Positions 832 to 31,535 of a stretch of DNA of 34,176 bases are shown one piece after another; position 1 is the first letter of the stretch; each line of letters starts with the position of its first letter. The DNA comes from an uncultured Pelagibacteraceae bacterium (lineage in GTDB: Bacteria > Pseudomonadota > Alphaproteobacteria > Pelagibacterales > Pelagibacteraceae). The translations under genes were made by a program, and so were the position numbers. The stretch lies in assembly GCA_902579585.1 (NCBI GenBank), contig CACHHJ010000006.1:1-34176 (forward strand), given 5' to 3'. The notes below the pieces were generated by a model. It saw only the letters and a program-made list of their open reading frames with translations. It made no database searches and was not told the DNA's origin.

Positions 832-2478
832 TTAGTTTATACGTTTATATATTGTGTATATAGGAATTTCATCAATAATTAATTTATCAAACTCTTTAAA
901 ATTTTCTGGTATTTTGTATTTATTATTATATCTGATATCTACCTCATAGATATAATTTGTATAAATATAATCAGCTTTATTATATTCCTGTCCAACAAAA
1001 TTAAGTCTTTTTTTATCATCCTCTTTTAAAAGGGCTTTGCCATTAAAAAATGGTGTCCATGAGGCATTAGCTACATTTATATACACATTATTATTTTCCT
1101 GACTTAAAATATTTTTTAAAGCATCGGCTCTACTCAAAGAAGCTGTATCAACCTGATATTTTTCAACATTATGAGAATTGATTAGATTATTAAAATACAA
1201 ACTTTGATATGGATGGAATTGATAAATTTTAAAAACAATAAAAAATAAAGGCAGAATAGATATAGGAATAAAAAACGTTTTAATTTTTTTATACTTTGAA
1301 ATTATAACATAAAGAAAATAAAGCCCAAAGGCACAAATATAAACAATAAATGTATGGAGAAAATAAAAATGTCTCCAGCCACTTAACATCGCTACGTCAA
1401 AGAAGACTACAAAAAAAATAAATGTAAGAAAAAAAATAATCATGTACACATCTTTTTTTTCTTTTGTACCACGCCACAAATCATTATGAATAGTATTCTC
1501 TTTTACTTTTAATAATCTTCTGAACAATCTAAAGATTAGATATGCTAAACCAATAAATAATAATAACAAATAATATATAGGAGTGGAAATTGTGATCCAG
1601 GTTGGCAAATATGACCTGGGTAAGAATTTAATTAAATAGTACTCACCATTAAATAATATGGATAAACCCATATAATAAAAAAAAGGGTCAAGCCAATTTA
1701 ATATATTTTTGAATTCAAGAGTCCATGCATAGGGAAAATGCAAAAATAGAAAAAGAAAAAAAAAGAATATTAAAAAAAAGGATTTTAAAATAAATTCTTT
1801 GTATTTGGACGTATTAGCTAAAAATTCAAAAAAATAAAAAATTATTATTGAAAAAGGTAAAAACAATCCTACTATTCTTGAAGATGTTGCAAATGCTGCA
1901 AAAAGTGAAAATAAAATTAAATTTTTATATGAATTTTTTTGTATAGTTTCAAGACAATAATAAATTGAAATTGTAAAAACAGACAAAAAAAATACATCTT
2001 TATTATTGTGAAAACTGTCACCAAAGATTCTTGGTGAAAGTATATAAATAAGCAGGCCAATTAGACCTATAAAAAAACCAAATCTATTTTTAAGGATTTT
2101 ATAAAAAAAAATTGAACTAATGAAATATACTATGAAACTAAAAAGATGTCTCATTTCGAAATAATCTTTCGACTCATTTATTCCAAACAAAATCTCTATT
2201 AAAGCCGTTGGTACATCAAATAAAATTCCATAAAAATTAAAAAAATTGATATCTGGTAATTGATTGGTAGCTATAATTTCTTGATACTTCAAATTTGAAA
2301 TTTCAGTTAGTTCACTAAAATTAGTAAAACTTAATAAATAACTTAACCAATGAAAACCATTTTTTCTTTGGAAATGTTCCTCTATACCAATCCCAAAATC
2401 TTTATAAATAAAAATTCCTATTAAGAGATAGATACTAAAAACACTAAATAAAATTAAATTATTTGTCTTGTTGATCAT
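832..2478 (-). CDS. Multi-pass membrane glycosyltransferase, GT39/PMT-like
   Basis: 548 aa, many TM segments, RIFGDSFHNNKDVFFLSVF and ATSSRIVGLFLPF typical of PMT/ArnT-like GT-C enzymes; followed by a GT2 gene 5 nt downstream. Confidence 0.7.
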   Translation of the reverse strand: MINKTNNLILFSVFSIYLLIGIFIYKDFGIGIEEHFQRKNGFHWLSYLLSFTNFSELTEISNLKYQEIIATNQLPDINFFNFYGILFDVPTALIEILFGINESKDYFEMRHLFSFIVYFISSIFFYKILKNRFGFFIGLIGLLIYILSPRIFGDSFHNNKDVFFLSVFTISIYYCLETIQKNSYKNLILFSLFAAFATSSRIVGLFLPFSIIIFYFFEFLANTSKYKEFILKSFFLIFFFFLFLFLHFPYAWTLEFKNILNWLDPFFYYMGLSILFNGEYYLIKFLPRSYLPTWITISTPIYYLLLLFIGLAYLIFRLFRRLLKVKENTIHNDLWRGTKEKKDVYMIIFFLTFIFFVVFFDVAMLSGWRHFYFLHTFIVYICAFGLYFLYVIISKYKKIKTFFIPISILPLFFIVFKIYQFHPYQSLYFNNLINSHNVEKYQVDTASLSRADALKNILSQENNNVYINVANASWTPFFNGKALLKEDDKKRLNFVGQEYNKADYIYTNYIYEVDIRYNNKYKIPENFKEFDKLIIDEIPIYTIYKRIN

Positions 2479-2483
2479 ATTTA

Positions 2484-3218
2484 CTAAAATTTTTTAAAAA
2501 AACTTATTAATAAAGTTAAACTATACCTAATACATGTATAAATATATTTTAAATTAAAATTGACCACGGTTTTTGAATATCCTGATGCTCTTGTTTCATC
2601 TTTAAATGGTATCTCTATAACTTTATAATTATTTTTTTTTAAATATATTATTAAATCAACAAAATAATTTCCGTAAAAACCTTTTAATTTATAATTTTCA
2701 AATACTTTTTTTTTTATACTTACGAAGCCGCTTGTGTAATCAGTGATATCTTTATACAAGAGTAATTTACATAGTTTATTATAAAAATAACTCTGGTTTT
2801 CATTTATATCCTTATTAAGTTCGGGATTGTTAAAATATCTTTCGCTGTTATTTAGAAAACGTGAGCAAATTATAGCATCATTAGTATCAGCTCCCTCGAT
2901 AAATTTTATAATATATTTTGGCGGATGTTGAAAATCTGCATCCATCCATATCAAATTATCAAACAAAGATTTTTTTATTCCATCATTTAATGAGGCAGCT
3001 AAATTCTTGTTTTTATTTTCCCTTACAATGAGTTTTAAATTTAATTTTTTTTTAAGCATATTCTTTATTGTTTCGATAGTACCATCTAATGAATTGTCAT
3101 CTACGACAATGATTTCGTAATCAATTTGTTTGTTTTCAAAAATATTGGAAATATTATTTATTAAATCCTTTATATGACCATTTTCATTAAGTGTTGGTAA
3201 TATAACGCTGAAACCCAT
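2484..3218 (-). CDS. GT2 family glycosyltransferase (polyprenyl/dolichyl-phosphate sugar synthase-like)
   Basis: SVILPTLNENGHIKDLI, IIVVDDNSLDGT, LIWMDADFQHPP are GT2/DPM1 motifs. Confidence 0.85.
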   Translation of the reverse strand: MGFSVILPTLNENGHIKDLINNISNIFENKQIDYEIIVVDDNSLDGTIETIKNMLKKKLNLKLIVRENKNKNLAASLNDGIKKSLFDNLIWMDADFQHPPKYIIKFIEGADTNDAIICSRFLNNSERYFNNPELNKDINENQSYFYNKLCKLLLYKDITDYTSGFVSIKKKVFENYKLKGFYGNYFVDLIIYLKKNNYKVIEIPFKDETRASGYSKTVVNFNLKYIYTCIRYSLTLLISFFKKF

Positions 3219-3222
3219 TTTT

Positions 3223-4218
3223 TTAAAAATTCTTAAGAGTTAATTTTTTGTTCAAACATATGCATTCAACAAGACTGTACATTAAAGGAAAGTTTTTTTT
3301 ATGATATTTGTTTAATATCTTTGGGCCAAGCTCAAAAGCTAAATCAGCTCCTTCGACAGTTTCATGTTTCATAAATTTTAATTTAGCTTTTTTGTATGTG
3401 TACCCCTCGCCTAAATATTTTCCCATTTTACTATTTCGTCCTCCTGCACTGCTAACATGCAAATCTGCTAATCCAGATAAACCATAAGCTGTTTTTTCAT
3501 AACCTCCATAAAGTTTAATAAATTTACACATTTCAAGAAAAGATTTATAAAAAATTACAGATGCTGTATTTAAATCACTTACTGAACCAATGATCATTGA
3601 ATAAAAATTTTTAATAGCAGCACAATACTGAACACTTCTATGATCATTGGAACATTCAATTTTGTAATAATGTGTCTCAAAAATTTTTTTATGTTTTTTT
3701 GCATTTTCTAAAAATTCATTAGAAAAAACAACAGATGTCCTTTTTTTCATTGCAAGACTCTTGGCTATACATGGTCCAGCAACAGCTGTTATAGACAAAT
3801 TTTTAAATTTAGAAAATTGATCATTTTTAATTATTGATGAAAGTTTATAACTCAAAGTTTCAATTCTTTTATCAAAGATTGTTAAACCTTTTGTGAGTAA
3901 AACAATTGGGACATTGGGATTATGAAATTTTGCTAATTTTTTACCTATCCATTCAATACCCATTGAATTTACTCCCACCACTACTACAGTCGGTTTTGTA
4001 TTTAAAGCTTGATATAATTTATTAGCTTTAAATAGTTTTAATTTTTTAGGTAAATAACAATCTAGATTTTTATAAAACTTTCTACTTTTATTTAATTTAT
4101 CAATTAATTTATCCTCAAGTGGTGATCCAATTAAAGTTACACTGTGACCATTTTCTATGCTCGGGATGGAAAATGCGGATCCCATTGCGCCAGCACCAAT
4201 AATTAATATTTTTGACAT
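3223..4218 (-). CDS. NAD(P)-dependent glycerol-3-phosphate dehydrogenase-like protein (divergent GpsA)
   Basis: N-terminal Rossmann GAGAMGSAF; AVAGPCIAKSLA; CAAIKNFYSMIIG; YGLSGLADLHVSSAGGRNSKMGKYLGEG match the GpsA pattern but divergently. Confidence 0.75.
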   Translation of the reverse strand: MSKILIIGAGAMGSAFSIPSIENGHSVTLIGSPLEDKLIDKLNKSRKFYKNLDCYLPKKLKLFKANKLYQALNTKPTVVVVGVNSMGIEWIGKKLAKFHNPNVPIVLLTKGLTIFDKRIETLSYKLSSIIKNDQFSKFKNLSITAVAGPCIAKSLAMKKRTSVVFSNEFLENAKKHKKIFETHYYKIECSNDHRSVQYCAAIKNFYSMIIGSVSDLNTASVIFYKSFLEMCKFIKLYGGYEKTAYGLSGLADLHVSSAGGRNSKMGKYLGEGYTYKKAKLKFMKHETVEGADLAFELGPKILNKYHKKNFPLMYSLVECICLNKKLTLKNF

Positions 4219-27967: not shown

Positions 27968-28888
27968 GTGGAAAAAAATATATATATAATTCACGAAAAT
28001 GACGAATGGCTTGTTCCATTAAGAGAGAGTTTTAAAAAAATTAAAGCTCCTTTTAAAGAATGGCATATGGATAAACAAAGTTTTGATTTTAAAAAATCAC
28101 CACCAAATGGTATTTTTTATAATAGAATGAGTGCAAGTGCACATTCACGGGGACATAGATATGCTCCAGAAAATACAAAAGATGTTCTTGATTGGTTGGA
28201 AAAAGATAAAAGAAGAGTTGTGAACAATTCAAGAGCCTTGGAATTAGAAATAAGTAAACAAAAACAATACGAACAGTTAAAGAAATTCAATATAAATTTT
28301 CCAGAAACATATTATGCTAAAAATAAAAATGAGATCCTAGAAAAATCAAAAAATTTTAACAAACCATTTATTACAAAACATAATAGAGGTGGAAGAGGAC
28401 TCGGGGTAAAATATTTTACAAATTCAAATGACCTTGAAAAATATATTAATGGAAATTTTGAAAACTCTATTGATGGAATTACTTTATTACAAGAATATGT
28501 AGAATCTGATCCAAAAATAATAACAAGAGTGGAATTTGTAAACGGAAAATTTTTGTATGCAGTTCAAGTTGATGCTAGTGAGGGTTTTGAGTTATGTCCT
28601 GCTGATGCTTGTAATGTTGAAGAAAAGTTTTGTCCAACAAATCCAGATGGTAATAAATTCATGATTGTCAAAGATTATAGCAATCTTGAACTTAAAAAAT
28701 ATGAGGATTTACTTAAATCGAACAATATTGAAATTGCTGGTATTGAATATATTAAAGGTAAAGATGGGAAACATTATACCTATGACATCAATACAAACAC
28801 AAATTATAATTCAATTGCAGAGAGAAAGAGTAATTTGAAAGGAATGGATTCTATAGCAACATTCCTTTACAATGAACTAAAGAAATAA
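27968..28888 (+). CDS. ATP-grasp (RimK-like) carboxylate-amine ligase, substrate unknown
   Basis: KPFITKHNRGGRGLGVKYF glycine-rich loop; TLLQEYVESDPKIITRVEFVNGKFLYAVQVD; C-terminal YDINTNTNYN metal-binding motif; GTG start. Confidence 0.82.
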   Translation: MEKNIYIIHENDEWLVPLRESFKKIKAPFKEWHMDKQSFDFKKSPPNGIFYNRMSASAHSRGHRYAPENTKDVLDWLEKDKRRVVNNSRALELEISKQKQYEQLKKFNINFPETYYAKNKNEILEKSKNFNKPFITKHNRGGRGLGVKYFTNSNDLEKYINGNFENSIDGITLLQEYVESDPKIITRVEFVNGKFLYAVQVDASEGFELCPADACNVEEKFCPTNPDGNKFMIVKDYSNLELKKYEDLLKSNNIEIAGIEYIKGKDGKHYTYDINTNTNYNSIAERKSNLKGMDSIATFLYNELKK

Positions 28889-28957
28889 ATTTTAAGGGGT
28901 GTCTACAAAGACTGAGATTATACTCTTTGAACCTGACCGGTAATTCAGTGAGGGAAT
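28888..28957 (+). promoter_or_regulatory. TPP (THI element) riboswitch, compact form
   Basis: AAGGGGTGTC-TACAAA-GACTGAGATTATACTCTTTGAACCTGACCGGTAATTCAGTGAGGGAAT matches the THI-box blocks GGGGUGCC / CUGAGA / UACCC..UUGAACCUGA / GGUAAU / AGGGAA. P2 GGGGU (28896-28900) can pair with ACUCU (28922-28926); P3 GUCU/AGAC closes an ACAA loop. Immediately precedes an ATG of a thiamine-related gene. Confidence 0.92.
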
Positions 28958-29827
28958 ATGAAAATAAAATTAGCACTTGAGTGGTTTATAAATCCTGATC
29001 ATCTACCCTTTATTGTGGGTCTGGATAAAGGTTTATATAAAAAAAATAATATCGATTTAGAAATTATTGAGCCTGAAGGACATTATGATGGTTTTAAAGA
29101 ACTTGCTAAAAATAATATTCAATTAGCAACTAATGAGCCTCTACACTTAATTGAAAAATATCAAAATAATATTTGCTCAATTGGAAACTTTTTTGAAACT
29201 AATGGGGGTATTATATTTACCATTAAAGGCTATGAAAATTTAGTTAATGGAAAAGAGATTAAAATTACTTCACCGGTTAGTAATCCTGTTACAGACAAAA
29301 TAGCTAATGATATTATTCAAAGACATTTGAAAAAAATTAATAAAACCAATAAGAACATAAAAATTGTAGCTAATGATTTTTATCATATTAAACATCTTAA
29401 GGCTGGATTAGATGCTGCATGGTTGTGTTTTGAAAACTTTGAGGGTGTAGAGTCAAAATTAGAAGGTTTGGAGATAAAAAAATTGTATTTAGAAGATGTC
29501 GAAATACCTAATTTTTGTGCACTAGACGTATTTGCCTCAAAATCTTTTGCTAATAGTAATAAGAATTTAGTAAATGACTTTAAATCTATGGCGCAGGAGA
29601 GTATCAGAATTTTAAGTTCAGACTTAGATTATTCTAAATCTTCTTATTATTCTTATACTAAAACAAAGCCTAGTCCTTTGATGGACAATATTATTAAAGA
29701 TACAATTTATCGATTTAAAAATCCATTTGAGAATTCAAAGACTAAATGGAAAAACTTACATAAATATGTGGTTAAAGAAAAAATTTCTGATATTTCAGAC
29801 ACTCAATATAGCGAAATGTTTATTTAA
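28958..29827 (+). CDS. THI5/NMT1-like (ThiY-family) thiamine-pyrimidine protein without signal peptide
   Basis: MKIKLALEWFINPDHLPFIVGLDKGLYKKNNIDLEIIEP matches NMT1/THI5 N-termini; later DAAWLCFENFEGVESKLEG...VEIPNFCALDVFAS matches the ThiY-like WNYEG / GVP region; preceded by a TPP riboswitch; starts directly with the mature domain. Confidence 0.85.
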   Translation: MKIKLALEWFINPDHLPFIVGLDKGLYKKNNIDLEIIEPEGHYDGFKELAKNNIQLATNEPLHLIEKYQNNICSIGNFFETNGGIIFTIKGYENLVNGKEIKITSPVSNPVTDKIANDIIQRHLKKINKTNKNIKIVANDFYHIKHLKAGLDAAWLCFENFEGVESKLEGLEIKKLYLEDVEIPNFCALDVFASKSFANSNKNLVNDFKSMAQESIRILSSDLDYSKSSYYSYTKTKPSPLMDNIIKDTIYRFKNPFENSKTKWKNLHKYVVKEKISDISDTQYSEMFI

Positions 29828-29835
29828 TAATATTT

Positions 29836-30966
29836 TCATTTAAGATTATCTATTAATACAGAACAAGCTATTTCTGATGATTTATCTGTTCTGAATTCAC
29901 TTATAATTTCTTGTGTTTTTATTATTTGTTTTTCCATAATTTGTTTGTTACTTAAAAGTTTATCTACAGTATTAAAAATATTAGTGGGATTACATTTGGA
30001 CTGTAATAATTCAGGTATTACTTCAGCATTAGCAGCTATATTAATAATATTTGCAAATTTAACTTTAACTAACATTTTAATAATGAAAAAATTAATAAAA
30101 CCCATTTTATAAATAATAATAGAAGGAATTTTTGCCTTACAAATCTCAAGAGAGATAGTTCCAGATTTGGCTACAGCAAAAATTGATGATTCTATAATAT
30201 GAGATTTAATTTTTTCATCGCTTATGGCCCCGCAATTTTTTAAACCCTCTTTTAATAATAAATTCTGTATTAGCTGGACGTATTCACTAGTTGAATGAAA
30301 AACAAAGAATATATCTTGATATTTAGCATTCATTTTTTTTACAAATTCAAACAATATTGGCATTAATGTTTTAATTTCAGATAATCTGCTACCTGGAAAG
30401 ATAGAGAAGATTTTTTTATTATCTTTAATAATTTGACTTATCTCAATTTTATCTTTTTTATTGTTTTCAAGCAAAGGATGTCCGGTAACTGTTGATTTCA
30501 TTTTTTCTTTGTCAAAATATTTTTTTTCAAAAGGGAAAAGTAATAATACGTGATCTATATATGACTTTAATTTTTTTACCCTTTTCTCTCTCCAGACCCA
30601 CACTTTTGGAGCAATAAAATGAATTGTTTTAATATTTGGATTTATACTTTTAACTTTTTTAGCAACACGCAGGGTAAAGTCAGCACTATCAACTGAAAAA
30701 AGAATATCAGGTTGAAATTTTATTATATCTTTAACTGTTTTGTTAATTTTACTTTTAATTTTAAAAATATTGATTAAAACATTGGTAAAGCCTAAATATG
30801 TTATTTCTTTTAATTCGAACAATGATTTAATCCCTAATTTTTTTAGATGCTCACCACCTACAGAATGATACGCGATATCGGGTTTAGCAACTTTTAAGTG
30901 GGAAATAACTTTTGAAGCTAATTTGTCTCCAGAAGGTTCGCCTGTAAGTATAAATATTTTTTTCAT
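29836..30966 (-). CDS. lpxB: Lipid-A-disaccharide synthase
   Basis: MKKIFILTGEPSGDKLASKVI, YHSVGGEHLKKLGI, HFIAPKVWVWREKRVKKL, PFEKKYF, VTGHPLLE, FPGSRLSEI, AVAKSGTISLEI. Preferred ATG at 30964-30966, overlapping the msrA stop (ATGA); the ORF track start is 31002. Confidence 0.96.
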   Translation of the reverse strand: MKKIFILTGEPSGDKLASKVISHLKVAKPDIAYHSVGGEHLKKLGIKSLFELKEITYLGFTNVLINIFKIKSKINKTVKDIIKFQPDILFSVDSADFTLRVAKKVKSINPNIKTIHFIAPKVWVWREKRVKKLKSYIDHVLLLFPFEKKYFDKEKMKSTVTGHPLLENNKKDKIEISQIIKDNKKIFSIFPGSRLSEIKTLMPILFEFVKKMNAKYQDIFFVFHSTSEYVQLIQNLLLKEGLKNCGAISDEKIKSHIIESSIFAVAKSGTISLEICKAKIPSIIIYKMGFINFFIIKMLVKVKFANIINIAANAEVIPELLQSKCNPTNIFNTVDKLLSNKQIMEKQIIKTQEIISEFRTDKSSEIACSVLIDNLK

Positions 30967-31535
30967 CCCCAAATTTTGTTTAATGTTTCTTCTCTTTGAC
31001 AACCTTTTTTGTACATAAGGTATCTAATAAAATTTTTCTCATAATAATCCTGATGGTAAGTCTCTGCTATATAAAACTCGTTAAATTGTTTTACATAAGT
31101 AACGACTTTTTTATTAAATTTATCTTCAATATTTTTAATTGATGCATCTATAATAGTTTTTTGATCACTGTTTTCAAAAAAAACTACCGACTTATAGCTT
31201 TCTCCTCTATCACAAAATTGACCATCAGCATCAAAAGGGTCTATATTTATCCAATAAATTTCTAAAAGTTTTTTGAAGTTTATAATTGATGTGTCGTAGG
31301 TAATTTCTAAAGTTTCATAATGGCCAGTAGTATTTTTAACAACATCTTTGTATTTAGGGTTTTTTACGTGTCCCCCAGAATATCCAGAGATTGTTTTGAT
31401 TACGCCGTCAACCTTATCAAAAGATTCTTCCATACACCAAAAACAACCTCCGGCAAAATAGACTTTAGATATATTTTCTGCATTTAAATTTACTGGAAAT
31501 AATATAAAAAAAATGATGTATAAAATTTTTCTCAT
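30963..31535 (-). CDS. msrA: Peptide methionine sulfoxide reductase MsrA with predicted signal peptide
   Basis: Signal-like MRKILYIIFFILFPVNLNAEN then YFAGGCFWCMEESFDKVDGVI...GYSGGHVKNPKYKDVV...GHYETLEI; EIYWINIDPFDADGQFCDRGESYKS. Confidence 0.95.
   Translation of the reverse strand: MRKILYIIFFILFPVNLNAENISKVYFAGGCFWCMEESFDKVDGVIKTISGYSGGHVKNPKYKDVVKNTTGHYETLEITYDTSIINFKKLLEIYWINIDPFDADGQFCDRGESYKSVVFFENSDQKTIIDASIKNIEDKFNKKVVTYVKQFNEFYIAETYHQDYYEKNFIRYLMYKKGCQREETLNKIWG

Follow-up and report, generated by a model that had tools for sequence, protein, structure and literature searches.

The DNA analyzed here carries a conserved arrangement in which a riboswitch-controlled, cytosolic Thi5-like protein of a new clan has replaced the HMP importer in place, with an outcome that is most likely like that of Thi5. 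SAR11 are the most abundant bacteria in the ocean and are considered uniformly auxotrophic for HMP, a building block of vitamin B1. ThiV has been described as conserved across SAR11 genomes, and every phylogroup is said to have the TPP riboswitch upstream of ThiV (PMC11452348). By gene content, the genus studied here is a clear exception. The strongest point, which lay beyond the view of a first-pass annotation of the same DNA, is the location of the gene: it occupies the very slot that holds thiV in sister genomes. A literature search found no report of a replacement of SAR11 ThiV under the riboswitch. Cells of this genus may not depend on HMP import in the way that SAR11 are thought to.

The window, that is, the whole stretch of 34,176 nt that was analyzed, comes from a SAR11 host (Pelagibacteraceae), its close relatives being Pelagibacteraceae single-cell genomes. 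This agrees with the SAR11-like host that had been supposed from the DNA alone. The features of the locus are listed in Table 1. The stop codon of the ATP-grasp gene overlaps the 5' flank of the TPP aptamer. No gene follows the THI5-like ORF on the plus strand and the next gene, lpxB, is convergent, so no ThiXZ permease or ATPase accompanies the THI5-like gene at the locus. The first-pass annotation was thus right that the protein has no transporter beside it.

Table 1 Features of the riboswitch locus in the window.
Feature	Position	Strand	Evidence and remarks
RimK-like ATP-grasp protein	27968..28888	+	Pfam; upstream flank of exchange slot
TPP riboswitch aptamer (THI element)	28885..28973	+	cmscan RF00059, 45.5 bits, E 7.4e-8
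NMT1/THI5-fold protein, 289 aa, new clan	28958..29827	+	Pfam PF09084, profile search, AlphaFold, residue table, tree
lpxB	29836..31002	-	Pfam; convergent downstream flank of exchange slot

The riboswitch match covers the full length of the Rfam model (positions 1-105), and the aptamer runs to the ATG of the 289-aa ORF, as the first-pass annotation had described. All core motifs are intact (GGGGTG at 28896, CTGAGA at 28912, ACCTG at 28931, and GAGGGA at 28950) and conserved in relatives, and 31 columns are invariant across 13 homologous TPP elements. The element therefore has the conserved aptamer core and the architecture of RF00059. Its score lies below the curated Rfam cut-off for this family (54.3 bits), so that a default scan is silent and a search by E-value was needed. 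Low scores of this kind are usual in SAR11. A TPP riboswitch was detected in 121 of 147 Pelagibacteraceae genomes, exactly one in each, and only 16 of these 121 elements passed the cut-off while the other 105 scored below it. The host genome likewise has a single detected TPP riboswitch. As read from the Rfam alignment, helix P1 would pair UUUUA (28890-28894) with UAUGA (28957-28961), including one non-standard pair, which would place the start codon inside the ligand-stabilized helix.

The ORF matches only PF09084 (NMT1/THI5) in Pfam (E 1.6e-25), which bears out its earlier assignment to this family, and no other PF09084 match was found in the host genome (62% complete). The NCBIfam search returned a carbapenemase model only, which we regard as a chance match (E 0.0044). 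The protein begins with MKIKLALEWF, and the ATG is preceded by a stop codon at a distance of 2 or 4 codons in nearly every SAR11 copy, so a signal peptide has not been missed. Signal peptides were never found in the family, and secreted ThiY proteins carry visible ones wherever the N-terminus could be read. The protein is cytosolic, as had been proposed. The gene is under purifying selection, with dN/dS of 0.04-0.17 against eight relatives and a protein identity of at least 84% across the genus.

We then compared the fold with known structures. The AlphaFold model is confident, with a pLDDT of 93.5 and a pTM of 0.89. The best match in a PDB search with the single sequence was the substrate-binding protein 4nmy, while a search with the family profile, one of the checks that had been suggested, had yeast THI5 as its top match (E 1.2e-14) and 4nmy in fourth place (E 1.6e-13), a small gap. 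The structural half of that check did not separate the candidates: Foldseek ranked the thiamin-binding protein 4nmy, the FAMP-binding protein 3ix1, and the Thi5 structures together, with query-normalized TM scores to Thi5 mostly of 0.77-0.81. The fold therefore does not decide between Thi5 and ThiY. Among the fold-search matches were also enzymes of the same fold that do not consume themselves, labeled "Enzyme of biosynthetic pathway" (7ahr/7an5-8).

The gene order in the genus of the window was found to be lexA-gltX-umuD-umuC-ATPgrasp-[TPP-X]-lpxB, where X is the NMT1-like gene, thiV, or tenA. The ATP-grasp gene lies 5' of NMT1-like and thiV alleles alike, and lpxB adjoins the slot in genomes with any of the three genes. 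Across the genus, for which 31 genomes were searched with profiles, 16 have the NMT1-like gene and 7 have thiV, whose product is a sodium:solute symporter (Pfam PF00474), with no genome carrying both. One further match to the symporter alignment (E 1e-7, in G122) was a distant symporter. A strongly scoring TenA, counted without a second, CADD-like TenA protein, was found in two genomes (G020 and G096), both of which have neither thiV nor the NMT1-like gene. The remaining 6 genomes have none of the three genes and also lack lpxB, indicating that the slot was not recovered in them; all recovered slots therefore hold one gene. In this genus, the NMT1-like gene and thiV exclude each other.

DNA comparison of an NMT1-like locus with a thiV locus (L003 and L073) located the exchange. 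In 60-base steps, 50-60 of 60 bases (83-100%) are identical over the 900 bases upstream and through the aptamer, and identity falls to 15-20 of 60, the level of chance, directly after the last base of the aptamer. The gene was therefore exchanged in place and the riboswitch retained. In the loci read outside the genus, the TPP riboswitch mostly precedes a symporter of the thiV kind, and one locus from another genus (L080) has the order umuC-TPP-thiV. Because thiV prevails behind the riboswitch in other genera, it probably occupied the slot first. The lpxB flank tree needs 3 label changes in all, and in the weakly supported ATP-grasp flank tree the thiV genomes are intermingled with the NMT1-like ones; neither tree fixes the number of exchanges. 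Many of the SAR11 single-cell genomes are incomplete, which makes gene losses hard to read. Whatever the chemistry of the protein, three HMP-related genes are exchanged beneath one riboswitch at one site, an unusually clean case of replacement at a regulatory socket.

Several smaller features of the slot were also observed. In G096, a TPP riboswitch is followed by tenA in the slot (L072:3887-4552). In G020, tenA adjoins lpxB after a hemB-like gene, and no riboswitch was seen there (L094). The ATP-grasp gene between umuC and the riboswitch is missing in some sister genomes, and the upstream edge of the slot therefore varies too. In a few genomes, which have no ATP-grasp gene directly upstream, a convergent ORF of 188-190 aa lies 3' of the THI5-like gene on the minus strand (L008:6873-7439, L085:8384-8950, and L005:6873-7445). 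It has a signal-peptide-like start, and the L008 copy gave no Pfam match.

The thiamine pathway of the genus sets limits on what the protein can do. ThiC was found in none of the 31 genomes, as is expected for SAR11. A proper ThiE (E 1e-35 or better) is present in 12 of the 16 genomes with the NMT1-like gene, and HMP is therefore still needed. As is established for ABC importers, mere binding by a lone cytosolic protein of the binding fold cannot make up for a membrane transporter. To meet the need for HMP, a soluble protein must either make or free it intracellularly or act on HMP that comes in by another way. In the two tenA genomes, neither ThiV, the NMT1-like protein, nor ThiC was detected. 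Since these genomes are without thiV, another route for the pyrimidine probably exists. A CytX/PucI homologue has been described for SAR11 (PMC11452348) and is a candidate for this route.

To place the protein relative to Thi5 and ThiY, we compared residues and constructed a tree. The residues told the candidates apart better than the fold did. Known Thi5 turns over once: its His66 and a PLP imine on Lys62 are converted to HMP-P in a reaction that involves Fe(II) and oxygen (PMC10848271). The histidine of the EPLH motif, which the first-pass annotation could not align with confidence, is His63, and both the profile match and the multiple alignment place it at Thi5 His66. A histidine occupies this position in 15 of 15 family members and in none of 30 secreted ThiY proteins, which have Gln, Ser, Thr, or Asn. 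Likewise, Glu165 corresponds to Thi5 Glu170 in the family, where the 30 ThiY proteins have Gln or Ser. The residues that are invariant in ThiY (Tyr60, Gln61, and Glu188 in window numbering; 30 of 30) are Glu60, Pro61, and Ala188 in the family. Its own invariant residues comprise four histidines (H15, H42, H63, and H143) and six acidic residues, His42 and His143 being particular to the family. The PLP lysine of Thi5 is replaced by Asn59 here and by Thr in the distant homologue L028, and the family has no invariant lysine. CCCFC is missing, as had been noted earlier; the sequence reads PNFC in SAR11 copies and PNFS in Campylobacterota. In the tree, which includes only two Thi5 sequences and in which L028 forms a long branch, the family, Thi5, and ThiY form three separate clans with support of 99/97 or more. 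The yeast Thi5 sequence used was checked against the PDB chains 4h65/4h6d and agrees with them over 340 residues, apart from a few positions that are engineered or differ. Because the family lacks two defining residues and branches separately in the tree, we did not class it as Thi5. A version of Thi5 without the lysine would need another way of holding its substrate.

The protein has features in common with several known systems. It shares with THI5 of yeast and Candida (THI13; PDB 4h65, 4h67, 4h6d, 4esx, and 4esw) the fold (TM about 0.8), the best profile match, the cytosolic form, the equivalents of His66, Glu170, and Asp47, and regulation by thiamine. It differs from them by Asn in place of Lys62, the missing CCCFC motif, two additional invariant histidines (His42 and His143), its separate clan, and a shorter C-terminus (289 aa versus 340 aa). 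With ThiY of the ThiXYZ importer (3ix1) and with 4nmy it has the fold in common, and the N-terminal motif L[DE]WFxNPDH is common to the family and proteobacterial ThiY; however, it has neither a signal peptide nor ABC partners at its locus, and its pocket signature is Glu-Pro...Ala, with a histidine at the Thi5 position, rather than Tyr-Gln...Glu. The slot, riboswitch DNA, and regulatory logic are those of SAR11 ThiV (SAR11_0811), but ThiV is a symporter while the window gene encodes a soluble protein. A bacterial Thi5 is known from Legionella (Lpg1565). Like this protein and a Thi5 from another alphaproteobacterium (L133), the window protein is cytosolic and stands alone. The L133 gene is also preceded by a TPP riboswitch but, unlike the window gene, keeps the K62...H66 and CCCFC motifs.

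The L133 locus (about 1338-3879, in the 1.3 Mb genome G699) is an operon of a TPP riboswitch, Thi5, Thi4, and ThiE. Its Thi5 is about 46% identical to that of yeast and contains GLKAMIH and CCCFC. Although this alphaproteobacterial genome is small, its operon is a complete thiamine operon of the yeast type, with Thi5, ThiE, and a thiazole synthase that is THI4-like, and it shows the TPP riboswitch arrangement with a clear Thi5.

Relatives of the window protein were found in its SAR11 genus, in an alphaproteobacterium (L017, 56% identity) whose homologue has its own TPP riboswitch upstream, sporadically in Campylobacterota (7 of 200 genomes), and in the distant deltaproteobacterial L028. No copy was found in viral contigs, which gives no sign of a viral origin. 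In Campylobacterota, the gene often lies directly after thiE, in thiD-thiE-X or thiE-X operons. Nearly all Campylobacterota with the gene, among those tested, also have ThiC, and we rejected a role as a stand-in for ThiC there. Weak family matches in Campylobacterota (L110-L132) fall for the most part within long open frames (600-1500 codons). These frames have the look of sensor proteins that contain a binding domain of this fold, and not of members of the family.

Taken together, we read the protein as a lysine-less, Thi5-like former of HMP(-P) that replaces import, and we give this best reading a probability of about one half. In most genomes of the genus, thiV would have been replaced in place by the cytosolic Thi5-like gene, with the single riboswitch kept. 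At low TPP, the riboswitch would allow synthesis of the protein; when TPP is bound, P1 would close over the ribosome site and the start codon, turning expression off. HMP(-P) would be formed intracellularly, His63 taking the part that His66 plays in Thi5, and ThiE and the rest of the pathway would run without ThiC and without ThiV. The riboswitch, the exchange in a single slot, the exclusion of thiV, the lack of ThiC, the cytosolic form, the fold, and the conserved histidine are direct observations, whereas the formation of HMP(-P), its starting substrate, and any self-consumption of the yeast Thi5 type are inferred. The riboswitch of the L017 homologue and the Campylobacterota operons tie the family to thiamine independently and speak for this reading. 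The first-pass proposal of an HMP-P synthase thus stands as the leading interpretation, through the Thi5-like histidine and the absence of ThiC in 31 of 31 genomes, but not as plain membership in Thi5. Confidence stays near one half mainly because another pyrimidine route probably exists. The asparagine at Lys62, the absence of CCCFC, the presence of ThiC alongside the gene in Campylobacterota, and the lack of separation by Foldseek also count against synthesis. A parallel comes from algae, in which PF09084 genes without an assigned role lie next to TPP riboswitches and were judged unlikely to be HMP-P synthases (PMC4260697).

The protein could instead be an intracellular salvage enzyme that converts a pyrimidine from another uptake route to HMP, such as an aminomethyl- or formylaminomethyl-pyrimidine or a product of thiamin breakdown, as TenA would in the sister allele of the slot. 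This appears less likely than synthesis, although the third occupant of the slot, TenA, is itself a known pyrimidine salvage enzyme, the fold includes the non-self-consuming enzymes noted above, ThiY relatives bind formylaminopyrimidine (3ix1), and ThiC co-occurs with the family in Campylobacterota. Salvage leaves unexplained how uptake proceeds after the loss of thiV, and does not sit well with the retention of the Thi5-specific histidine and the loss of the Tyr, Gln, and Glu invariant in ThiY.

Less plausible still is a non-catalytic cytosolic protein that binds or buffers HMP, thiamin, or TPP, perhaps to store the compound or to deliver it to ThiD/ThiE. The periplasmic-binding-protein fold, which resembles thiamin- and FAMP-binding proteins no less than Thi5, and the position directly after thiE in several Campylobacterota would fit such a role. 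A binder, however, cannot replace an importer, yet the gene excludes thiV 16 to 7 with no overlap; the altered ThiY pocket positions and the set of four histidines and six acidic residues would also better suit catalysis or metal. A secreted ThiY-type protein with a missed signal peptide and a permease and ATPase elsewhere, which PF09084 membership and the single-sequence match to 4nmy would favor, is very improbable given the upstream stop codon in SAR11 copies, the absence of signal peptides from the family, the missing signature residues, and the fact that this is the sole PF09084 match behind the sole detected TPP riboswitch of the host genome. Finally, the view that the transporter gene was lost and that what now follows the riboswitch is a passenger, neutral or in decay, which is helped by the incompleteness of the single-cell genomes, is hardly credible under such strong purifying selection and with the same family tied to thiamine genes in other phyla.

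Should the Thi5-like protein make HMP, a lineage that is abundant in the ocean would supply itself in the B1 cycle where it had been counted as a consumer, and the protein would represent a new enzyme class. Tentatively, and at somewhat less than even odds, thiamin-pyrimidine synthases would then include a third class that has the Thi5 fold, does not depend on the lysine, and uses His63 and a pocket rich in histidines and acids (H15, H42, and H143). It would free part of SAR11 from HMP auxotrophy, having been acquired by exchange beneath the resident riboswitch, which would act as a plug-in socket for thiV, THI5-like genes, and tenA.

The second, distant protein of the TenA/PQQC family was observed in the host genome (G000:C2; L101:6411-7076, minus strand) and in most genomes of the genus. 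By eye it resembles CADD, a pABA synthase that sacrifices itself. If it is of this type, SAR11 would have a further enzyme that may work only once.
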